A stretch of 64,000 bases of DNA from Coprothermobacter proteolyticus DSM 5265 (GTDB lineage Bacteria > Coprothermobacterota > Coprothermobacteria > Coprothermobacterales > Coprothermobacteraceae): NCBI RefSeq assembly GCF_000020945.1, contig NC_011295.1, positions 806,001 to 870,000 of the forward strand. Reading direction: 5' to 3'. Shown here one piece after another: positions 25,238-34,611 of this stretch. Within the stretch, counting starts at the first letter, position 1; each line of letters starts with the position of its first letter. The position numbers and the translations under genes were made by a program. Under the pieces are notes generated by a model. It searched no databases, was not told the DNA's origin, and was given only the letters and a program-made list of their open reading frames with translations.

Positions 25238-25456
25238 TCAAAAAGGCACATATAACCATTTATGCCTGAAGAAAAGCATAGCGCCATTCTTGTCCAAAGA
25301 CATGAGACACTTGCCACCATGTCGAAAGAACGCGTTGACCACCGACGCAGATATCTTCTGATGAATCACAATAACGTCTGCGTTCAAATCAGAAGTAATC
25401 GTGCCTTCAGAAACTGCTTCATCGAAGTATTTCAACCTAATCTCTGGATATTCCAT
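25238..25456 (-). CDS. Small protein of unknown function at the end of the hydrogenase operon
   Basis: 72-residue soluble protein that I do not recognise. It starts at ATG 25456 behind GGAGG and overlaps the ferredoxin-like subunit gene by 20 bp, so it is very probably translated with the operon. The sequence is mixed alpha/beta in look (ADVIVIHQKISASVVNAFFRHGG), with one Cys and an aromatic C-terminus (FFRHKWLYVPF). There is no signal peptide, membrane helix or metal motif. It could be an accessory or regulatory subunit. Confidence 0.7.
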   Translation of the reverse strand: MEYPEIRLKYFDEAVSEGTITSDLNADVIVIHQKISASVVNAFFRHGGKCLMSLDKNGAMLFFRHKWLYVPF

Positions 25457-25988
25457 GGTCCTCCAGATATTTCTGAACTGCAGATTCTATTTCTTCGGGA
25501 GTCTTTTCTCTTCTGCACTTGGGGCATACTGATGCTCTGACCAATGTCTCAGGCGTGTATTTCTTGAATTGTCTAATGACCAATGTCCTAGCAGGCCTCA
25601 ATACCTTCGAACCGCATACTGGACATTCCACATAAGGCACACCACTTTCAATCCTCTCTTGAGTCCGATCAGTGCCCACATAAAGGCCCGTTTTGTCATC
25701 ACCTGTTAGTGCCGTGGTAGGACAAGCATCAATGCAGTACCAACAGTATATGCACACACCATAGTCAATCTTGTAATGAAAGAACTCCCCTTTTTTATCC
25801 TCAATAGTTATTGCTCCCGGTGGGCAGACCCGCTCACACTGACGACAACCAGTGCAATCTTCAGCGTCGTACAACGGCTTCCCGCGCCACTTGGGAGGAA
25901 CTTTTACAGGCTCTTTTGGAAAAGGTTTTACCACGGGTCCACCAACAAGTGTATCCATGAGTTTTCCGAATATTTCGCCGAAAGGCAT
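25437..25988 (-). CDS. mbhN: Hydrogenase ferredoxin-like subunit (MbhN/NuoI type)
   Basis: Electron-input subunit with two [4Fe-4S] clusters: CTGCRQCERVCPPGA at about residue 45 and CIYCWYCIDACPTTA at about residue 78. It passes electrons from reduced ferredoxin to the NuoB-like subunit. The C-terminal third carries a second set of paired cysteines, ECPVCGSKVL and SVCPKCRRE, forming a probable zinc ribbon that I do not expect in standard MbhN or NuoI. The 183-residue gene lies one base after mbhJ. Confidence 0.9.
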   Translation of the reverse strand: MPFGEIFGKLMDTLVGGPVVKPFPKEPVKVPPKWRGKPLYDAEDCTGCRQCERVCPPGAITIEDKKGEFFHYKIDYGVCIYCWYCIDACPTTALTGDDKTGLYVGTDRTQERIESGVPYVECPVCGSKVLRPARTLVIRQFKKYTPETLVRASVCPKCRREKTPEEIESAVQKYLEDHGISRD

Positions 25989-25989
25989 C

Positions 25990-26463
25990 TTACAATACGC
26001 CTCCTGTCTCTGTAATCTTTACCACGTCTTTCTGGTAAACTCCTTTGCGTTTTAACTCAAGAACCTCAGCAGCTTTCAATATCCCTACCATGATTCCTTC
26101 TGGCTTCGGTGGGCAGCCGAAAACGTAGACATCCACTGGAACCAATGTATCTAGTGGTCCAGCTATGCTGTACCCGCCCCTAAAAACACCGCCTGTAATG
26201 CCGCAAACACCTACTACCACGATAGCTTTTGGTTCAGGAACCTGATCGATAACGCGAAGAACGCTTTCTTTTGCTACTGCGGTAACGGGACCAGTAGCTA
26301 CAATGATGTCAGCGTGCCTTGGACTACCGACTAGTTTCACACCAAAACGTTCTGCGTCATATTTAGGCGTTAAAGCTGCGAGTATTTCTATGTCGCACCC
26401 GTTGCAGCTTCCAGTGTTCAGGTGGTATATCCATAAAGATTTTTCTGGTTTAAACACGCTCAT
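25990..26463 (-). CDS. mbhJ: [NiFe] hydrogenase small subunit (MbhJ/NuoB type)
   Basis: Holds the proximal [4Fe-4S] cluster next to the active site. The four cysteines are visible: SCNGCDIEILAAL near residue 18, GVCGITGG near 84 and FGCPPKPEGI near 116. The 157-residue length is that of group 4 hydrogenase small subunits, which lack the medial and distal cluster domains of uptake enzymes. It sits between the NuoH-like and ferredoxin-like genes. Confidence 0.94.
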   Translation of the reverse strand: MSVFKPEKSLWIYHLNTGSCNGCDIEILAALTPKYDAERFGVKLVGSPRHADIIVATGPVTAVAKESVLRVIDQVPEPKAIVVVGVCGITGGVFRGGYSIAGPLDTLVPVDVYVFGCPPKPEGIMVGILKAAEVLELKRKGVYQKDVVKITETGGVL

Positions 26464-26476
26464 GCGATATTCCCTC

Positions 26477-27436
26477 CTATACCAATGTTAGTAGCAGCAG
26501 TAGAAGTGAAGCTAAACCAGGACCCAAGAGGTAGAACTTTGCACCTTGATCGATCCTAAATCGACCACTAACTGCTCTTGGAATGGTGTTAATGATTATG
26601 GCAACAAGTAGCGTTCCAAACAGAGTACTGAGCAAGTTGACAAAGACGTTTCCTGAAGCAGGACTAACAAAAACCATCCACAAGAAATAGCTGTATGCTA
26701 TCAGTTTCATGTGCTTAAGGCCAAACAACACAGCTAAGCGTGGTCCATGAAGTTCAGCACCGTAACCATCCACGATCTCTGTTTCAGCCTCTGGAATGTC
26801 AAAAGGTACAGAACCCACAATAGCTGGGCCTAACACCAGTAGAACAAGAAAAGTGCCAAGGAATATGGGGTCCATCAGTAGCGTACCTAGCTGGCTTTTA
26901 GCCACTAATAAAGCACTCATGGAGAATATCGACTCCACAGGTAACCCGGTAACAAACACTGCTCTATATCCCAATGCAACTATAAGCAGTATGAAAGGTA
27001 CTTCATAACTCAAAAGCATGGAGATTTCTCTTGAAGCACCTACTAACGTATAAGGGGATTTTCCTCCAAATCCGATGAGTACATAAACCATGGCCATGAG
27101 AGCAAAGGCGTAAGCGAAAATAATCAAGTCACCATTGGTCGATAGGAGTTGGAAATACCCTCCTGCCATGGGAAAAGGCAACACGCTTAGTGCTAACACC
27201 GCAGCTACAATTCCCATGACCAGAGCAGCATCCACAACCATGAGGGCACTTCTGCTAGCTACTTTTCCTTTTTTGTAGAACAGTTTCACAAAGTCAGTGA
27301 TGTTTTGCCAAAAAGGAGGGCCATATCTTCCTTGTAGACGAGCTACAATTTTTCTATCGATACCGCCCACTAAAAGCGCCCATATTGAGAGCAGCAAAAT
27401 CCACAGCAACCAATACACAACTTTCACATTAACCAC
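26477..27436 (-). CDS. mbhM: Membrane anchor subunit (MbhM/NuoH type)
   Basis: Connects the peripheral hydrogenase arm to the ion-translocating membrane arm. The 319-residue protein has about eight hydrophobic helices and NuoH-family motifs: GGIDRKIVARLQGRYGPP, FFAYAFALM-like helix at about 95, and the acidic loop PFDIPEAETEIVDGYGAELHGPR. The start is ATG 27436, overlapping the antiporter gene by 13 bp. Confidence 0.92.
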   Translation of the reverse strand: MVNVKVVYWLLWILLLSIWALLVGGIDRKIVARLQGRYGPPFWQNITDFVKLFYKKGKVASRSALMVVDAALVMGIVAAVLALSVLPFPMAGGYFQLLSTNGDLIIFAYAFALMAMVYVLIGFGGKSPYTLVGASREISMLLSYEVPFILLIVALGYRAVFVTGLPVESIFSMSALLVAKSQLGTLLMDPIFLGTFLVLLVLGPAIVGSVPFDIPEAETEIVDGYGAELHGPRLAVLFGLKHMKLIAYSYFLWMVFVSPASGNVFVNLLSTLFGTLLVAIIINTIPRAVSGRFRIDQGAKFYLLGPGLASLLLLLLTLV

Positions 27437-30400
27437 CCCCTACCAATAACAAACGCAGCAATGAAGAAGATCACTATGTATGTGGCATAATCGTTTATTA
27501 CTCCAGTATAAGTAGACCTTACCACATCTGCCATGAAGTCGAAAAATGACGTCAAGTACGTGTAACCAGCTTCTAAAGCATGTGCAGCCGCCTTGGATAA
27601 CCACAAACCATAAGGATAGAAAAGGTCTTCAAATTGCATGGTGGCACGTTCTGGCTCAAACAACGCACTACCGGTATAAACTTCACCTTCTTGCCTAGCT
27701 TTACGGAAAAATGGTACAAGCATGACAATAGTAGCCAACAGTGTTAGTAGCACAATCCAGAAAAATGCACCTGTCCATGAAATTCCAAGTTGAATGAAAC
27801 TGGTACCGATCAAAGCCAGTGCGCCAACCAAAAGAGAGACGTTTTCTACACCGCGCTTCGTGACTGATGTACTACCGAGCCACAAGATAAACCATTTCGC
27901 CGTGTATGCAATACTCAGTATGGTTCCCAGCATGAGCACAGCCGTTAACAAGGGCGAAAACGCGTAAATACTGCTCATGTACACACTCCACTTTGCTAAG
28001 AACCCTGAGGTCAAAGGCATAGCGGCCGATGCCAGTGAAGCTACAACTACAGACAAGCTGAGTAAAACTCCTTTGTTGCTCCTTTGGTAGCTGGTACCCA
28101 GGAACAGAACAGATTCGAAAAGCGCGTAGGCAACGGCAAAAATAAATGGAGCATAGCTAACGATGGCATTGGAACCTAAACCTGCTCCCTGAAGAGCTTT
28201 TGAACTTAAGAAGATAGCAATTATCAAGAAGCCCATGTTTGACAAAGATGAATAAGCCAATATTTCGCGGAGATTCTCCTTGCCCAATGCAATAAGCCCA
28301 CCATATATAATCTGAACTCCTGCCAGAATGACCACAGGGAACATAAGATAATTCTCCACGCCATACTTAAATGTAACCACCACCGCTCCCAAAGACAGGA
28401 TTCCGCTAAAGACTGCTCCCACTACTGGAGAGCTTTCGCCATACACCTTTATCATCCAACCGTGGAAACCAAACATACCAAGTTTTATCAATACACCGAG
28501 AGTCAATGCCAAGAGCCACCAGTTCTGACCTAAAGCCTGACCTGCCACTGCAAACATAAATGCCAGCCCAGAAGCCATAGCCCAGCCATAGTACGAGGAA
28601 GCTAATTCTCTGTTACCTTCTCCTACCACCATCATTAGACCGCTCCAGCTCAGAACCTCCCAAGCTACCAGTGTGCTGAGCAGACTGTTTGACGAAATTA
28701 ACCAAAGAAGGCTGATAAAACCAAGCAAAGCAGCGTTTATTTGAAAGCTCTTGTTTTTACCCCAACCTGTTCCTGAGAGACATACCATGCTAAGCACGGC
28801 TGATCCCACAGCCAAAAGCCCTAAGAGGATCGTAGATGTAACGCTACCTGCACTCAGCCCTAAGAGCTCAGCCGCGTTTTGTGGGAAAACTAGCACAAGC
28901 ACCGAAATCAGCAAACCTGCATAACCAACAGCGTGCAAACTCAGGTTGGCTAAAATGAACAAGGCAACAATGCATAACCACATCCAACCGTTATTAATGA
29001 GCCATTCAGCAACATTAAAAACTGCATGATCAAAACCCATTTGAGTTCCGGCGGTAAAGTTGAGTAATCCCTGAGAGAAATTATCTACAAACGGCGATAA
29101 GAACGAAATAGCTACAAGACCAGAAGCAAGCAGAATATAACCAACAGTGCGCCAACTCACGCGATCCCACTTCAGAGGAGAACCGCTAGTGATTGCCAAG
29201 TAAGAACCGTAATAGCTAGCTTCCACTATGCTGCCGATGGCTAACACTGCTGCTGCCCAGTAGAACTGTCTTTGAACCAATCCTATGATTATGAACAGTT
29301 TTGAGAAAAATGTCAAAAACGGGGGCATGCTTGAAAGACCAAGTACGGCAACCAAATTCGAATAGGCAGTGCTAATCCCACTCAAAGAACCTCCAGCCTT
29401 ATTCAGATCCCTGTCTGGTACTTTGTCGGTAATCTCGCCACTAAGCAAGAAGGCAAGCGCTTTACTTAGGCCATGGCCAAAAACATGCAGTATACCACCC
29501 ACAAATCCGATGGGGCTGCCTGAAAAAATGCCTAGTACCATGTAACCGACTTGGGCGGTGGATGAAAACGCCAAAAGCCTTTTTACATCGTGCTGCCTAT
29601 ATGCAGAAAATTCTCCCACAAGTACGGTCAAAGCGGCAATTACCATAAGAAATACCGAAAACTGTTTGGTCGTAGCAATAGCACCAGTGAAGACGATGTA
29701 CATAAAGCGCACCATGGCCAAAATACCTATCTTAATCACTGCACCTGAAAGTAAAGCGGAAATGGAAGCCGGTGCAGCGGGGTGAGCATCTGGAAGCCAA
29801 CTGTTAAGAGGCCAGATTGCTCCTTCCACACCAAAACCCACAAAGAGCGAAGCAATCGCCAGCCAAAGGGTGCCCGTAGGCATGGAACCAATCTTGAAAG
29901 AGATGTCCCACATGTTCAGCGAACGAGTACCTTGGTAGATCAGTATCAAAGCAAATAGAACAAATGAAGTAGCTACTGAACCAAGAATTAGGTACTTCAT
30001 GCTCGCTTCCGCAGTTTCTGCAGTCCTGTACGCGTTGACCAAAGCGTAGGCACTAATACTTGCAATTTCTAAGAACACGTACATGTTAAACAAATCATTC
30101 GTAAGAGAAACACCCGTGGCTCCCGTCACCATGAGTATGGTAAGTATGATGAACCGCATCTCGTCGTGCACATGAAGATAGGAAAGGTTATATATGAATG
30201 CAGCTAAAGCAATAAACCACAACAACATACTCAGACCCGCACCGAAAACATCTATCCAAAGAGCAATTCCCAGCGGGGGTTTAAACCCGGACATAAACAC
30301 GAAGATGGGTTTATCCATCGCTTTTGGTAACACTACAAGAAGTCCAAATAGTAATTGGAACAATGCAAGACCTACGCCCACAAAGGTCGCAAGAAACTTC

Positions 30401-30498
30401 CTTTTTCCGAAAAGTAGGTTTATAAAAGGAAGCAAGAAAGCAACTACCAAAGGTATACCAATTAATAAAGCTGCCGGTTGATATGTTTGCCAGGTCAT
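27424..30498 (-). CDS. Large antiporter-like subunit, apparently two MrpD/NuoL modules in one protein
   Basis: Ion-translocating membrane subunit of the hydrogenase; 1024 residues, about twice a single MbhH or MrpD. The first module (about 1-480) has the TM5 Glu in MYVFLEIASISAYALVNAY, WPLNSWLPDAHPAAPASISALLSGAVIKIG and a VKRLLAFSSTAQVGYMV loop. The second (about 500-930) repeats the plan: TLVAWEVLSWSGLMMVVG, LIKLGMFGFHGWMIKVYG and LREILAYSSLSNMGFLI, but at the TM8 position it reads SGILSLGAVV, without the Lys. The last 90 residues add a charged linker and helices, perhaps the MbhI-like or lateral-helix part. No separate mbhI is seen. It overlaps mbhG by 4 bp. Confidence 0.85.
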   Translation of the reverse strand: MTWQTYQPAALLIGIPLVVAFLLPFINLLFGKRKFLATFVGVGLALFQLLFGLLVVLPKAMDKPIFVFMSGFKPPLGIALWIDVFGAGLSMLLWFIALAAFIYNLSYLHVHDEMRFIILTILMVTGATGVSLTNDLFNMYVFLEIASISAYALVNAYRTAETAEASMKYLILGSVATSFVLFALILIYQGTRSLNMWDISFKIGSMPTGTLWLAIASLFVGFGVEGAIWPLNSWLPDAHPAAPASISALLSGAVIKIGILAMVRFMYIVFTGAIATTKQFSVFLMVIAALTVLVGEFSAYRQHDVKRLLAFSSTAQVGYMVLGIFSGSPIGFVGGILHVFGHGLSKALAFLLSGEITDKVPDRDLNKAGGSLSGISTAYSNLVAVLGLSSMPPFLTFFSKLFIIIGLVQRQFYWAAAVLAIGSIVEASYYGSYLAITSGSPLKWDRVSWRTVGYILLASGLVAISFLSPFVDNFSQGLLNFTAGTQMGFDHAVFNVAEWLINNGWMWLCIVALFILANLSLHAVGYAGLLISVLVLVFPQNAAELLGLSAGSVTSTILLGLLAVGSAVLSMVCLSGTGWGKNKSFQINAALLGFISLLWLISSNSLLSTLVAWEVLSWSGLMMVVGEGNRELASSYYGWAMASGLAFMFAVAGQALGQNWWLLALTLGVLIKLGMFGFHGWMIKVYGESSPVVGAVFSGILSLGAVVVTFKYGVENYLMFPVVILAGVQIIYGGLIALGKENLREILAYSSLSNMGFLIIAIFLSSKALQGAGLGSNAIVSYAPFIFAVAYALFESVLFLGTSYQRSNKGVLLSLSVVVASLASAAMPLTSGFLAKWSVYMSSIYAFSPLLTAVLMLGTILSIAYTAKWFILWLGSTSVTKRGVENVSLLVGALALIGTSFIQLGISWTGAFFWIVLLTLLATIVMLVPFFRKARQEGEVYTGSALFEPERATMQFEDLFYPYGLWLSKAAAHALEAGYTYLTSFFDFMADVVRSTYTGVINDYATYIVIFFIAAFVIGRGWLM

Positions 30499-30836
30499 CC
30501 TTTCAGCCTCCTCACCTTATTCATGTCAAAGGTGCCAAAATGTTTGTGGATCCAAAGTGCAATACTTAAAGCCATGGCGGTTACTGCAACATCAATGACG
30601 ATGGACGTAAGCGTTAAAGCGTGTGGAACAGGATCTGCTACTGAGAGTGTTGGTTCTATATCCAAAAAGATGGGAGCTGTGGCACCAATGCCCCAATATC
30701 CCAAAGATACAATCATCAAGTTTAAACCTGAAGTTACCACAGACAAACTTATGATGATTTTTATCAGATTCTTTCGGGCCAATATGCCATAAAGCCCAGC
30801 TAGGAACACACCAGCCATGAGTAAGAATGCAAGCAT
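30495..30836 (-). CDS. mbhG: Antiporter-type subunit MbhG (MrpC/NuoK family)
   Basis: Three-helix membrane protein of 113 residues. The family features are an N-terminal helix, a RKNLIKIIISLSVVTSGLNL helix and LTLTSIVIDVAVTAMALSIAL with the C-terminal RLKG. It resembles MrpC, contributing to the sodium/proton module of the hydrogenase. It sits directly after mbhF (one-base gap). Confidence 0.9.
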   Translation of the reverse strand: MLAFLLMAGVFLAGLYGILARKNLIKIIISLSVVTSGLNLMIVSLGYWGIGATAPIFLDIEPTLSVADPVPHALTLTSIVIDVAVTAMALSIALWIHKHFGTFDMNKVRRLKG

Positions 30837-31259
30837 TTAAAACTCCCCCTCCTTAGTCTCAGCCATGGCACCGATAACTTCAACGATGCCTCCAAAAACT
30901 TTAACGCCAACGAAAAAGTTCATTAAAGCAACTACTCCAGCACTAAGGATCTTACCGGTTATGCCAACACCAAGAAAGTCGCCCATAAAAAAACCGGTCT
31001 TCCACAACCCTATGATAGCCGCGCCTGCAAAACCAATACCACCCAAAGCTTCCATGAGAGTGTACTTCTCCAAGTTGAATCTGTGTAACACAACGTCAGC
31101 TCCAAAGACGAGGAACACCAACGCTGCCACACCACCTAGAATAACTCCGCCCTGGAAACCTCCTCCCGGACTGAGATGGCCATGTAACACCACATAAGCT
31201 CCCAGTGTCATTACTATTGGAGAGATAAACTTTACGATGACTTTTGGTACCATGGTCAT
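30837..31259 (-). CDS. mbhF: Antiporter-type subunit MbhF (MrpB family)
   Basis: Four-helix membrane protein of 140 residues. It has the diagnostic MrpB loop HGHLSPGGGFQGGVILG (about residues 26-42) and a Gly-rich C-terminal helix region ending AETKEGEF. It is part of the Mrp-like ion-translocating module and overlaps mbhE by 4 bp. Confidence 0.93.
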   Translation of the reverse strand: MTMVPKVIVKFISPIVMTLGAYVVLHGHLSPGGGFQGGVILGGVAALVFLVFGADVVLHRFNLEKYTLMEALGGIGFAGAAIIGLWKTGFFMGDFLGVGITGKILSAGVVALMNFFVGVKVFGGIVEVIGAMAETKEGEF

Positions 31260-31636
31260 TTTTCTTCGCCACCTTTCAAAGCCGTAACCATGTAAACCAG
31301 ACCAGTTATGGCAACGAACAAGATTGTGGCTTCACCTAATGTATCGTATCCTCTGTAACCAAACACAATGGACGTTACTACGTTGGCTGCATTTACACTG
31401 CATTCACCACCGGCAAACTTGCAATCAGGCTTATTACCGGTCTGCTGTGCTATTTCATACTCGGTTATGGTTTTACCAATATTTGGTATGGGCATAAGAG
31501 GATCAGGTGTATCCTGCAGCGTAGAATACTCAGAAAGAGGCGTATTGAAAAGGCTGTCGTTGCCGTGCAGCGATAAGAATATGCCGAAAAACAAAAAAGC
31601 CACTATGACAAAAGCCAGAAAATCTCTAAATTTCAT
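31256..31636 (-). CDS. mbhE: Antiporter-type subunit MbhE (MrpB N-terminal / MrpA C-terminal-like)
   Basis: 126-residue membrane protein with an N-terminal helix, a roughly 55-residue outside loop and a C-terminal helix. The C-terminal block NVVTSIVFGYRGYDTLGEATILFVA is the Mrp/Mbh signature. The loop carries two cysteines (PDCKFAGGECSV) not expected in an ion channel part; they could form a disulfide on the outer face. Overlaps with both neighbours are 4 bp. Confidence 0.88.
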   Translation of the reverse strand: MKFRDFLAFVIVAFLFFGIFLSLHGNDSLFNTPLSEYSTLQDTPDPLMPIPNIGKTITEYEIAQQTGNKPDCKFAGGECSVNAANVVTSIVFGYRGYDTLGEATILFVAITGLVYMVTALKGGEEK

Positions 31637-31884
31637 TCTTCCACCTCCTTGGTTCTTTGCAGAACCACGAAGAAGATAATTGGTACAACAACAACACCCA
31701 CTGCAGCTTCTGCAATTGCAACGTCGGGAGCATTTAGAAGAAGGAACTCCAAAGCAACAAATGAACCCATAACAGCTTGACCAATGACAGCTCTGACAAG
31801 ATTCCTCTGCAAAACCGTGAACCAGGCGCTAATTAGTGCCCCTACGAGGTTAATCACGTGGAGCAAAAGGATGCCATTACTCAT
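31633..31884 (-). CDS. mbhD: Antiporter-type subunit MbhD (MrpA C-terminal domain / DUF4040)
   Basis: 83-residue protein with three hydrophobic helices. It matches the DUF4040 pattern: RNLVRAVIGQAVMGSFVALEFLLLNAPDVAIAEAAVG, where APDVAxxEAAVG is the signature. It is part of the Mrp-like module. It overlaps mbhC by 8 bp and mbhE by 4 bp. Confidence 0.9.
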   Translation of the reverse strand: MSNGILLLHVINLVGALISAWFTVLQRNLVRAVIGQAVMGSFVALEFLLLNAPDVAIAEAAVGVVVVPIIFFVVLQRTKEVEE

Positions 31885-32227
31885 CTGCTTTAGCCTCCTT
31901 TCTGCTCTTCAAATGGTCCGTTACAGATTTCTCCCAAAGTGGAACGCCCGCGTAATAACACGCTCTAGCTAGTACATGAGAAGCAGTGGGGTTTGTAATG
32001 AGCATAAAAAGTGAGAGTAGTAATGCCTTCACTCCAAAGCTAGAAAGCAAACCCAAATGAATCTCTCTTAGAAAAACGCCAAGCATTATGCTTATACAGC
32101 CGAGTGTTACATTCTTTGTAGAAGTCTGTAACTTGCAGAAGGGATCAGGCATACGAAGTATACCTACTACACCAGCAAAATTGAAAAAAGCACCTATGGC
32201 ATAAAAAACATAAGCTACATAATCCAT
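31877..32227 (-). CDS. mbhC: Antiporter-type subunit MbhC (MrpG family)
   Basis: 116-residue, three-helix membrane protein with the MrpG phrase GVVGILRMPDPFCKLQTSTKN and the helix-end LITNPTASHVLARACYYAGV. This family is always found in Mrp antiporters and Mbh-type complexes. It lies one base after mbhB. Confidence 0.92.
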   Translation of the reverse strand: MDYVAYVFYAIGAFFNFAGVVGILRMPDPFCKLQTSTKNVTLGCISIMLGVFLREIHLGLLSSFGVKALLLSLFMLITNPTASHVLARACYYAGVPLWEKSVTDHLKSRKEAKADE

Positions 32228-32228
32228 G

Positions 32229-32483
32229 CTATAGCTCCCCCCTTATGTAGCGTGCATAAGCAACTACCATGATAAAGTCCAGTAAGGCCAGTACCAAAGC
32301 TATGTCCAGGTAAATACCACGTCGCATTTCCAAGCTCCAAAGAGCTAATACCACCGCAATAATAGGAGAGATTGTCGACATCGCAACAATACGATCCATG
32401 TCCTGGGGCCCTATTACAACCCTGTACAGAAGAACCACAGACAAAATGATAAGGAATAACATGAGCAGTAATTCAACACTCAT
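32229..32483 (-). CDS. mbhB: Antiporter-type subunit MbhB (MrpF family)
   Basis: 84-residue, three-helix membrane protein with the MrpF features RVVIGPQDMDRIVAMSTISPI and ALVLALLDFIMVVAYARYI. It overlaps mbhA by 4 bp. Confidence 0.92.
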   Translation of the reverse strand: MSVELLLMLFLIILSVVLLYRVVIGPQDMDRIVAMSTISPIIAVVLALWSLEMRRGIYLDIALVLALLDFIMVVAYARYIRGEL

Positions 32484-32989
32484 GGGAAAAGCCTCCTCGC
32501 AAACGGGGCGGCAAAACCATAGATGATTTCCGCACCCTTTTTAGGATCCTCCGTATCAACGTGGATCCAGTGGATGTACATTTTCTTCTCGTCTTTATCT
32601 ATATCAACTGTTATGGTACCTGGGGTCAATGTTATGGAATTAGCTACCAGCGTATATGCCTCGTCTGATGGGAAGTCCGCTTCTATTTCCACTATGCCAG
32701 GATAAATAGGCAACCTTGGATTCAACGTCCGTAGAGCCAAGTCAATATTGGCTTTTACCATTTCTTTTAAGAGCACAAAGAAATAAACTATGAGCGTTGG
32801 CCAATTTAACGGGTTCAACACATTCAAGAATTTCGTATCTAACCAAAGGTCGTATGTGAAAAGCGTAACCACAAACGTTAATATGAGCCCGAAGATTAAT
32901 TCTTGAGCATCTAATGACCAAGTAAACAACAGCCAAAAGACCATGCTAAGAAACCATACGCCCGCGAAAGTCTTAGCTTTATTATTCAC
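32480..32989 (-). CDS. mbhA: Antiporter-type subunit MbhA (MrpE family)
   Basis: 169-residue protein with two or three N-terminal helices and a cytoplasmic domain. MrpE hallmarks are FFVLLKEMVKANIDLALRTLNP and VANSITLTPGTITVDIDKD, followed by MYIHWIHVDTEDP. It follows the large-subunit gene by 18 bases. Confidence 0.93.
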   Translation of the reverse strand: MNNKAKTFAGVWFLSMVFWLLFTWSLDAQELIFGLILTFVVTLFTYDLWLDTKFLNVLNPLNWPTLIVYFFVLLKEMVKANIDLALRTLNPRLPIYPGIVEIEADFPSDEAYTLVANSITLTPGTITVDIDKDEKKMYIHWIHVDTEDPKKGAEIIYGFAAPFARRLFP

Positions 32990-33007: not shown

Positions 33008-34090
33008 CTATCGATCCATGCAACTCATGCAAGGATCAATGTGACCAACTATAACAGGAGCGTCAGCCAAGTTAGATCCACGCATCATGTGCTCAGAAGC
33101 AGGCAAGTTAATCAAAGTAGGTGTTCTGATCTTTAGCCTACCTGGCTTGTCAGTTCCATCAGTGATCAGATGGTAAGCTAATTCACCTCGTGGAGCCTCT
33201 ACACGGCCAATGACATCATTGGGTTCAATCTTCAAAACCGGCTTCGGATTCTTTATTTGCCCTGCAGGCATCTTGTCCAAAACCTGTCTGATGATTTTAA
33301 TGGATTCTAATACCTCGAGAACCCTAACAAACGTACGTGACCAAACATCACCGTCATCTAATACTACTAGGTCAAAATCCAACAATGGATAAACAGCATA
33401 TGGCGCGGTTTTTCTCAAATCCTCTCTAATGCCTGAACCTCGAGCGGTGGGACCAACCACGCCTAGCAAATGAGCTTCCTTCCTACTCACAATACCCACA
33501 TTTTTTGTCCTAGCTAATATGCTCGCATCTTTGCTCCACGTGTCCTTAAGCTTGAGCCCAAGGTCTTCAAGGGTTTCTAGAGCAGCCTTTATTTGACTAG
33601 AAATACTCTCATCGACATCACGCCTTACACCACCCAAAGTGTTTATTGCGTAGTTAACACGATTACCTGACAACAGCTCCAGCATGTCCATCACAGCTTC
33701 TCTTCCAGACCACGTGAACATGAACAGCGTATCAAACCCCATCTTGTGAGCCATTGCTCCCAAGTACATTAAGTGGCTGTGTATCCTCTCGAGCTCAGCT
33801 GTTAAAACACGAATGTATTCGGCTCTTTCCGGAACTTCCAAGCCCGCCGCCTTCTCTACCGCCAGACAGTATGCCCAGCTGTGATGAAAAGAGCAAATAC
33901 CGCAGGTTCTCTCCACTAAGCCTAGATCGCGAATAAAAGTTCTTTTGGTAGCGCTTTTCTCAATGGCTCTGTGAATGAAACCAATCTTGATTTCAGCATC
34001 GACCACCATTTCTCCCTCGAGCTGAAGTTCGATGTATTCCCCTTCCTCGAAGGCCGGATGATAGGGTCCCAAAGGAAATTTATAGCCCAT
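33008..34090 (-). CDS. mbhL: [NiFe] hydrogenase large subunit, group 4 (MbhL/NuoD type)
   Basis: Catalytic subunit for proton reduction to H2. Both nickel-binding motifs are intact: ERTCGICSFHHS near residue 65 and HIDPCMSCMDR at the very C-terminus. This makes it a true hydrogenase rather than the sulfane reductase (Mbs/Mbx) paralogue, in which these motifs are degraded. The 360-residue chain ends with the Arg of the second motif, so there is no C-terminal extension to be cleaved. The rest follows NuoD/EchE (IHSHLMYLG, GPTARGSGIREDLRK, RGELAYHLITDGT). It follows mbhK by ten bases. Confidence 0.95.
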   Translation of the reverse strand: MGYKFPLGPYHPAFEEGEYIELQLEGEMVVDAEIKIGFIHRAIEKSATKRTFIRDLGLVERTCGICSFHHSWAYCLAVEKAAGLEVPERAEYIRVLTAELERIHSHLMYLGAMAHKMGFDTLFMFTWSGREAVMDMLELLSGNRVNYAINTLGGVRRDVDESISSQIKAALETLEDLGLKLKDTWSKDASILARTKNVGIVSRKEAHLLGVVGPTARGSGIREDLRKTAPYAVYPLLDFDLVVLDDGDVWSRTFVRVLEVLESIKIIRQVLDKMPAGQIKNPKPVLKIEPNDVIGRVEAPRGELAYHLITDGTDKPGRLKIRTPTLINLPASEHMMRGSNLADAPVIVGHIDPCMSCMDR

Positions 34091-34100
34091 TATGCACCTC

Positions 34101-34490
34101 CTAAAAGTCTAGATAGATTCCGCGCTTAGCATCATCCGGGATGATTAGCCTTTTTGGACGCGGATGGTTGGAGAACTTGATGTCAAACAAATCCATAATC
34201 TCTCTTTCTGCCCAATCAGCAGCTGGTAGTAAAGGTGTTATAGAAGGAACAGTTTTGTCTTCAGGTACCGGCAGTTTCAGCGAACACACCCAATTCCCAT
34301 AGGAAAAATGATATTGCATAAATAGGCGATCTTCCTCAGGATATGCAGTTATGGTGATAAAGCGCAATACATCTTTGAAATCTGTGATGAACTCTAAAAG
34401 CTTAAGTACGTCCACATCTACTATTTCTCTTTCACCTTCTCCGTTCAAACCGTAACGTTGTAACTTAGATTGTTCTACACCAGGTAACAA
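34101..34490 (-). CDS. mbhK: Hydrogenase subunit MbhK (NuoC type)
   Basis: First gene of the hydrogenase operon. The 129-residue soluble subunit has the NuoC signature as AADWAEREIMDLFDIKFSNHPRPKRLIIPDD, ending KRGIYLDF. It sits between the large subunit and the small subunit in group 4 enzymes. The start is set at TTG 34490, about eight bases after GAGGGGG; a GTG at 34496 would touch the ribosome site. Confidence 0.9.
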   Translation of the reverse strand: MLPGVEQSKLQRYGLNGEGEREIVDVDVLKLLEFITDFKDVLRFITITAYPEEDRLFMQYHFSYGNWVCSLKLPVPEDKTVPSITPLLPAADWAEREIMDLFDIKFSNHPRPKRLIIPDDAKRGIYLDF

Positions 34491-34611
34491 ACTCACACCC
34501 CCTCACTTTTTGGAAAGCATTTTTTACCGTCCGCTGTATCACTTCTTCTAAATTCAGTTAGACATTTTAACACTATTCAGTCCAACTAGAACCAACATCG
34601 CAAACAACTTA

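Follow-up and report, generated by a model that had tools for sequence, protein, structure and literature searches.

Introduction

The closest described systems are two complexes of Pyrococcus furiosus. In MBS, a sulfane sulfur reductase (PDB 6u8y; PMC7684303), two antiporter modules, MbsH and MbsH′, are present as separate chains together with Mrp-like subunits, and the large subunit lacks the [NiFe] ligand set. MbsH carries a Glu at the TM7 position, and MbsH′, which ends in an HL/TM16 tail, has a charged axis consisting of E128, K217, K248, H336 and K399. In MBH (PDB 6cfw), a group 4, Mrp-linked [NiFe] hydrogenase, the subunits L, M, J, K and N and the Mrp-like A–G are combined with one antiporter module (MbhH, with a TM7 Lys) and a separate MbhI. 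The antiporter subunit HycC of the Escherichia coli formate hydrogenlyase (FHL; PDB 7z0s) is a single module with an HL/ND3-like tail, in a complex without an Mrp part. Its antiporter residues are altered: the TM7 Lys is lost, the TM8 Lys and the TM11 His/His/Lys are kept and TM12 has a Glu. In MrpA chains (805–958 aa), an antiporter module is followed by an MbhD/MbhE-like domain.

The residues in the middle of these modules are considered necessary for the passage of protons. For NuoM, proton transfer between the TM8 Lys and TM12 is thought to involve a TM11 His (PMC9271201), and the K247A mutant of E. coli NuoN, which affects the matching TM8 Lys, retains about 8–35% of its activity in electron transfer and pumping, according to the assay (PMC13073174). 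Sazanov considers the TM12, TM8 and TM7/TM5 sites to be the apparent minimum for a domino mechanism (PMC10212512). Here, we describe a fused antiporter subunit encoded in a 64,000-nucleotide stretch (the window) of the Coprothermobacter proteolyticus DSM 5265 genome.

Results

A preliminary description of the window had recognised a hydrogenase subunit with two antiporter modules in one chain, and our analysis bears this out. The gene is a single unbroken minus-strand ORF encoding 1024 aa (Table 1), in which PF00361 is found twice (192 and 75 bits; curated cut-off 21.5), a double match that is beyond chance. All of the motifs quoted earlier are present: FLEIAS (142–147), WLPDAH (234–239), SGAVIKIG (251–258) and LAFSS (309–313) in module 1, and WEVLSW (613–618), FHGWM (678–682), SGILSLG (698–704) and LAYSS (747–751) in module 2.

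Module 1 is nearest to MbsH (E 9e-64), and the C-terminal half, used alone as a query, retrieves MbsH′ (6u8y_X, E 6.5e-10); furthermore, residues 916–1022 are matched by an HMM of H′ (E 1e-9). Structure prediction, which the preliminary description had proposed as a check, gave antiporter-type helices in each half of the chain (AlphaFold, pTM 0.81) at moderate confidence (mean pLDDT 75, and 69.5 for module 2 alone), with low pLDDT at residues 922–980 in the C-terminal extension; in the rows of the folding alignment, H and H′ were placed in one frame and the intervening stop was read through. In Foldseek comparisons, module 1 superimposes on 6u8y_H with a TMt of 0.88, and HycC (7z0s_C), the top match, and MbsH′ (6u8y_X) rank first for module 2. 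Because the direct BLASTP alignment between the halves is weak (E 9e-5), the two modules are ancient paralogues. We reject a recent tandem duplication, since module 1 clusters with H, module 2 is matched in order by the H′ profile and BLASTP hardly aligns one half with the other.

Table 1. Features of the fused gene, its key residues and the surrounding operon (window coordinates)
Feature	Position	Strand	Remarks
K subunit (30-kDa/NuoC-like)	34101..34496	-	PF00329
L subunit, [NiFe] large subunit, ligand motifs CGIC and DPCMSC	33008..34090	-	best PDB match MbhL 6cfw_L
A (MrpE-like)	32480..32989	-	PF01899
B (MrpF-like)	32229..32483	-	PF04066
C (MrpG-like)	31877..32227	-	PF03334
D (MbhD)	31633..31884	-	PF13244
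E (MbhE-like)	31256..31636	-	PF20501 at 21.9 bits, below cut-off of 27; place in operon
F (MrpB-like)	30837..31259	-	PF04039
G (MrpC-like)	30495..30836	-	PF00420; 4-bp overlap with start of fused gene
Fused MbsH–MbsH′-type antiporter subunit, 1024 aa	27424..30498	-
Module 1, residues 1–483, MbsH-type	29050..30498	-	distal by homology to MBS
Glu144, module 1 TM5	30067..30069	-	MbsH E138
Glu225, module 1 TM7, Glu replacing Lys	29824..29826	-	MbsH E219
Lys256, module 1 TM8	29731..29733	-	MbsH K250
His338, module 1 TM11	29485..29487	-	MbsH H330
Lys400, module 1 TM12	29299..29301	-	MbsH K393
Module 2, about residues 505–905, MbsH′-type	27784..28986	-	proximal (adjoining M) by homology to MBS
Glu614, module 2 TM5, kept	28657..28659	-	MbsH′ E128
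Lys672, module 2 TM7, kept	28483..28485	-	MbsH′ K217
Leu703, module 2 TM8, replaces bridging Lys	28390..28392	-	MbsH′ K248; K/R in 69/70 other H′/H2-class rows
Phe787, module 2 TM11, replaces His	28138..28140	-	MbsH′ H336; His in 67/70 other H′/H2-class rows
Tyr791, module 2 TM11, replaces His	28126..28128	-	MbsH′ H340
Glu795, module 2 TM11; Lys in MbsH′	28114..28116	-	Glu in 5/5 full-length fused proteins
Lys836, module 2 TM12, kept	27991..27993	-	MbsH′ K399
C-terminal extension, residues 906–1024: TM15, loop, lateral helix HL, TM16	27427..27783	-	as in MbsH′ and HycC (ND3-like)
M subunit (NuoH/ND1-like)	26477..27436	-	PF00146; best PDB match MbhM 6cfw_M
J subunit (NuoB-like)	25990..26463	-	PF01058
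N subunit (2[4Fe-4S], NuoI-like)	25437..25988	-	PF12838/PF00037

The fused gene lies in an operon with the order K-L-A-B-C-D-E-F-G-HH′-M-J-N, which shares L, M, J, K, N and the Mrp-like A–G with MBH, and the MbhI gene is absent between the fused gene and M. The L subunit matches MbhL (6cfw_L, E 7.6e-91) more closely than MbsL (E 1.7e-56), falls in the [NiFe] clade of our tree and, in contrast to the MBS large subunit, has both CxxC ligand motifs, one near the N-terminus and one at the C-terminus. Because L is thus an intact [NiFe] subunit closest to MbhL, unlike that of MBS, the locus encodes a hydrogenase whose MBS-type arm has its two antiporters in one chain, where MBH has a single one. The complex is presumably a ferredoxin-dependent, Mrp-linked [NiFe] hydrogenase, sharing with MBH the presumed reaction from ferredoxin to H2. 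The preliminary description had counted modules against the single MbhH of MBH; this yardstick was misplaced, since the closest arm is that of MBS. Because that arm already has both MbsH and MbsH′, the gene unites two subunits already known as neighbours. These adjacent proximal-arm subunits have been joined in operon order, with no new doubling.

How widespread is this fusion? C. platensis, the MAG Ch108 and two order-level relatives, one a Dictyoglomota MAG and the other a further MAG, carry this operon with the same fused ORF. Part of the linker was also seen in a third Coprothermobacter. At 62 bacterial loci, H and H′ are encoded side by side by two genes, which frequently overlap by 4 bp. 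Most of these loci, and the second operon of genomes G005 and G006, are MBS-like (A B C D (EF) G H H′ M J L N); their H and H′ are homologous to the modules described here but unfused, and where L was read, its [NiFe] ligand set is incomplete. A similar fusion occurred at least once elsewhere: on contig C53 of genome G051, a 1080-aa fused H–H′ (L123) lies between G and M, as in Coprothermobacter. It is MBS-like, in that its candidate L, encoded on a different contig, has a single CxxC, and both of its modules retain most canonical residues, unlike module 2 of the Coprothermobacteraceae. Because it branches within the MBS clade in a tree of module 1, it is probably independent. The placement of module 2 in trees is unreliable, because long branches meet. 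Other long frames (L111, L112, L113 and L115) were rejected as fusions; they are separate genes.

Module 1 retains the complete MbsH residue set. The preliminary description had listed its landmark motifs correctly and had overlooked that Glu225 occupies the position of the usual antiporter TM7 Lys, as it does in MbsH. As for module 2, the absence of the TM8 Lys had been noted correctly; the loss of both TM11 His residues and of the TM11 Lys had escaped notice. Compared with the MbsH′ axis, K248 has become L703 and H336 has become F787, and the other three residues are kept. Module 2 of the Coprothermobacteraceae has therefore kept its edge residues (E614, K672 and K836) and lost those in the middle of the proton wire: its TM8 (residues 689–710) has neither a charged residue nor a histidine, and Glu795 is the only such residue of TM11. 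This is the opposite of the pattern in HycC. The loss of the TM8 Lys and TM11 His is common to all four Coprothermobacteraceae genomes examined, whereas module 2 of the two order-level fused relatives retains them in our residue table. A decaying module 2 was considered and rejected, because dN/dS in its core is about 0.04, a rough figure with dS near saturation; the module remains under strong purifying selection.

Discussion

How might such a complex work? From the identity, operon and residues of the fused subunit, we infer a mechanism that we regard as probable, although with some reserve: module 1 pumps, and module 2 serves as a conserved structural and electrostatic relay, being unlikely to be a second full pump because the TM8 and TM11 residues that join its two faces have been lost. 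By homology with MBS and MBH, module 2 (H′) would pack on M beside the hydrogenase, with module 1 (H) beyond it and the Mrp-like Na+ module (A–G) distal. Electron flow from ferredoxin to H2 would trigger the L/J/M loop network, and module 1 would translocate one proton and be linked to Na+/H+ exchange. Module 2 would turn K836 towards M and E614/K672 towards module 1, and the covalent link and the HL strap would fix the pair in a 1:1 order. The preliminary description had suggested a changed ion stoichiometry per H2; with the central residues missing from module 2, a single-pump stoichiometry like that of MBH, not a doubled one, is the conservative expectation.

The alternative in which both modules pump, with Glu795, tyrosines and ordered water standing in for the TM8 Lys and TM11 His in module 2, would yield the two protons per H2 that have been proposed for MBS. 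The strong purifying selection on module 2, its retention of E614, K672 and K836, the invariance of Glu795 in all five full-length fused proteins and the full residue set of the sister-lineage fused proteins are consistent with such a function, and the gap in module 2 could be spanned by E795 or by chains of water. Nevertheless, its TM8 is without charge or histidine and its TM11 has Glu795 only, and the small free energy of the reaction from ferredoxin to H2 (12 kJ/mol per 2e-; PMC7684303) fits one pump better than two, so that we consider this reading distinctly improbable. Module 2 might instead resemble HycC, acting as a half-channel that delivers cytoplasmic substrate protons to the [NiFe] site, first via K836 on TM12 and then via M, without transmembrane pumping of its own. 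HycC and MbsH′ are, as noted, its first structural matches, and in HycC, which has a cytoplasmic path of Glu294/His291/Cys430/Lys433, the TM12 residue touches HycD and a clear P-side path was not seen (PMC9474812). Moreover, the HycC mutations K239A (TM8), H328A and K336A (TM11) did not significantly reduce H2 production in FHL (PMC9474812), so that the loss of the TM8 and TM11 residues need not matter in a hydrogenase. Module 2, however, still carries the TM7 Lys, which is missing from HycC, and its TM12 residue is a Lys, not a Glu, and we regard a half-channel as rather unlikely.

Two further readings concern the gene itself. Other bacteria often have unfused H and H′ genes that overlap by 4 bp, so that a single-base error could mimic a fusion. 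Yet C. platensis, Ch108 and two MAGs of another family all read through the junction without a change of frame, and the linker fragment of the third Coprothermobacter agrees with this; since these relatives carry the fused ORF in the same operon, we reject a frameshift or assembly artefact. We likewise reject an MrpA-like architecture, that is, one antiporter module with an MrpA C-terminal domain. MrpA chains are similarly long and match the fused protein at the whole-chain level, but PF00361 recurs in the second half, which ends in an MbsH′-like tail and is not an unrelated domain, and MbhD and MbhE, which correspond to the C-terminal parts of MrpA, are encoded by separate genes in the operon.

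Yu et al. proposed a test by adding or inactivating one MBS pump (PMC7684303). Coprothermobacter has a natural, selected variant whose proximal module lacks the TM8 and TM11 sites, which bears on how complex I-type enzymes work, and its same-order relatives have the same fused hydrogenase with the sites intact, so that the two could usefully be compared. An MBS-type arm on an enzyme with an intact [NiFe] site also has implications for the relationship between MBH and MBS. We speculate, as a doubtful but possible extension, that the proximal module, although it has no central proton wire, couples the hydrogenase to the distal pump via the covalent link, the HL strap or electrostatics. If this is true, an unbroken charged axis through every antiporter module, as demanded by current models of complex I, would not be essential, and a hydrogenase with an MBS-type arm would represent a surviving intermediate between MBH and MBS.

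The fused gene and its operon

The C. proteolyticus genome consists of one contig of 1,424,912 bases. The fused gene overlaps gene G by 4 bases at its start and gene M by 13 bases at its end, and hypF, hypD, hypE and other maturation genes lie on the plus strand, divergent from the hydrogenase operon. We looked for a second gene encoding the 49-kDa large subunit (L) in this genome and found none. The genome encodes a single further PF00361 protein, the N-terminus of which carries a tandem repeat with a unit of about 26 residues.

Positions of the fused gene, its operon and other PF00361 proteins discussed in the text
Feature	Position	Strand	Description
Fused antiporter ORF	27424-30498	minus	1024 residues, uninterrupted
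Hydrogenase operon K-L-A-B-C-D-E-F-G-HH′-M-J-N	34496 down to 25437	minus	from gene reading and Pfam matches
Other PF00361 protein of C. proteolyticus	G000:C1:1312771-1314540 (= L029:4772-6541)	minus (in L029)	589 residues
H-H′ fusion of genome G051, contig C53	L123:1179-4421	minus	1080 residues
Multi-module protein of genome G031, contig C2	L124:8676-12491	minus	1271 residues

Two antiporter modules in one chain

The encoded protein is an H-H′ fusion. PF00361 matches it twice (192 and 75 bits; cut-off 21.5); the best solved structure for the whole protein is MbsH of the Pyrococcus sulfane sulfur reductase MBS (E 9e-64), followed by MbhH of the hydrogenase MBH, and that for the C-terminal half alone is MbsH′. 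A profile of 60 H′ sequences only (59 separate bacterial H′ and MbsH′) aligned colinearly with module 2 and its C-terminal HL/TM16 tail. These matches bear out the preliminary description of two antiporter modules in one chain, and the structure prediction it proposed gave an AlphaFold model (pTM 0.81, mean pLDDT 75) with antiporter-type helices in both halves. In Foldseek, the whole model matched MbsH (target TM 0.88), and module 2 alone had HycC of E. coli formate hydrogenlyase (FHL) and MbsH′ among its three best matches, with modest TM scores. An antiporter fold of module 2 is supported by this model of moderate confidence.

Numbering residues after MbsH and MbsH′ (PMC7684303), we found the full MbsH set in module 1 (E144, E225, K256, H338 and K400). 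Module 2 of the Coprothermobacteraceae retains E614, K672 and K836; the TM8 Lys is absent, as the preliminary description had noticed, with L703 replacing K248 of MbsH′, and in TM11 F787 (Y in the MAG Ch108) and Y791 replace H336 and H340. A partial gene in a fourth genome of the family has the same motifs. Because residues 689-710 contain no charged residue or His and TM11 has only E795, the loss holds whatever the details of the alignment. This Glu, at the next TM11 position, occurs in all five full-length fused proteins where MbsH′ has Lys. We compared 70 other H′/H2-class sequences, most of them from separate H′ genes and some from the antiporter subunits of other hydrogenases. The TM12 Lys is invariant in these 70, the TM11 His is retained in 67, and TM8 has Lys or Arg in 69. 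Two fused relatives at the order level keep K, H and H at the three sites, whereas the Coprothermobacteraceae do not; from this distribution, the fusion probably predates the loss of the central residues, which took place within one family.

Is module 2 then degenerating? In a codon comparison with the closest MAG, dN/dS was about 0.035 in the module 2 core and 0.057 in its C-terminal part, close to the 0.054 of module 1, values that are rough because dS is high; the linker was the most variable region of the gene. Judged from these substitutions, module 2 is maintained and not decaying. Of the earlier suggestion that one of the two translocation sites is possibly altered or inactive, alteration of the second module is supported.

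As a separate observation, 79 unfused H sequences from bacterial MBS-like operons have TM8 Glu (37/79) or Lys (26/79) and mostly TM11 Gln (63/79), so the Pyrococcus residue set is not fully conserved in the distal module of these complexes either.

Distribution of the fusion

The fused ORF and its operon order recur in C. platensis DSM 11748, the nearest named relative found (fused protein 73% identical), in Ch108 and in two MAGs of another family in the order (1048 and 1049 aa), which rules out a frameshift or assembly artefact. In a third Coprothermobacter MAG, the two pieces of the gene lie at contig ends. Besides the fused hydrogenase operon, the two MAGs of the other family (G005 and G006; L131 and L132) have an MBS-like operon in which H (476 aa) and H′ (675 aa) are not fused. 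H and H′ are distinct neighbouring genes at 62 bacterial loci, where they often overlap by 4 bases, so a small junction mutation would be enough to fuse them.

The search for other fused proteins proposed earlier thus succeeded within the order and in genome G051; among 60 relatives and two more phyla (17 and 54 genomes), no clear case beyond G051 was found. The G051 fusion lies between G and M in an MBS-like operon, and its second module has the canonical TM8 and TM11 residues. A candidate L with a single CxxC opens another contig (L125). Because module 1 of the G051 fusion falls within the MBS clade, apart from the Coprothermobacter group, this fusion probably arose independently, although its branch in the tree is long.

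An MBS-type arm on a hydrogenase

L carries both ligand motifs (CGIC and DPCMSC), matches MbhL best among solved structures (E 7.6e-91; 1.7e-56 for MbsL) and clusters with [NiFe] enzymes with full support, and the closest structure to M is MbhM. Module 1, however, is joined to the MbsH-type subunits with support 99, as a basal branch of their clade, and its TM7 Glu corresponds to MbsH E219 (PMC7684303). The complex could be a chimera or else a relic from before MBS lost its [NiFe] site. Two modules are not unique among hydrogenases, since others surveyed have more than one antiporter gene: [NiFe] operons of WOR-3 and Stahlbacteria MAGs (L046, L051, L072 and L093) contain three separate antiporter ORFs, Mrp-like subunits and L with CGIC and CYCC. 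Within the survey, only the Coprothermobacter-type fused operon combined a hydrogenase with an MBS-type arm made of a single chain. In the G031 protein PF00361 matches three stretches, equivalent to roughly two and a half antiporter modules. Its gene immediately precedes M, J, N/K and an L whose motifs are CSLC and CISC, and no neighbouring Mrp-like genes were recognised.

Zhurongbacter 3DAC, of a sister lineage of Coprothermobacterota, is reported to have a 12-gene, sulfur-repressed MBH cluster and a 13-gene MBS cluster (PMC10356935); the available part of that account mentions no fused subunit. The available part of a 2025 complex I survey reports B/C/D fusions and mentions no antiporter fusion. 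The literature searched, mostly outside subscription journals, contained no description of the present H-H′ fusion or of the module 2 residue losses.

Possible roles of module 2

MBS has two modules and MBH one, and in MBS H′ adjoins M with H further out (PMC7684303). By homology, module 2 would adjoin M, with module 1 beyond it. Since the TM12 residue faces M in MBH, MBS and FHL, where HycC Glu391 lies about 4 Å from HycD Tyr102 (PMC9474812), K836 should face M and E614/K672 module 1. The lost TM8 and TM11 residues are those that would join these two faces. The matching TM8 Lys mutant of E. coli NuoN, K247A, loses most activity (PMC13073174), whereas HycC tolerates K239A, H328A and K336A for H2 production (PMC9474812). 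We prefer a reading in which module 1 would act as the pump and module 2 as a conserved spacer and relay. Less probably, module 2 may feed protons to M in a HycC-like way, or be an altered second pump. The free energy from ferredoxin to H2 is small (12 kJ/mol per 2e-; PMC7684303), which would fit a single pump.
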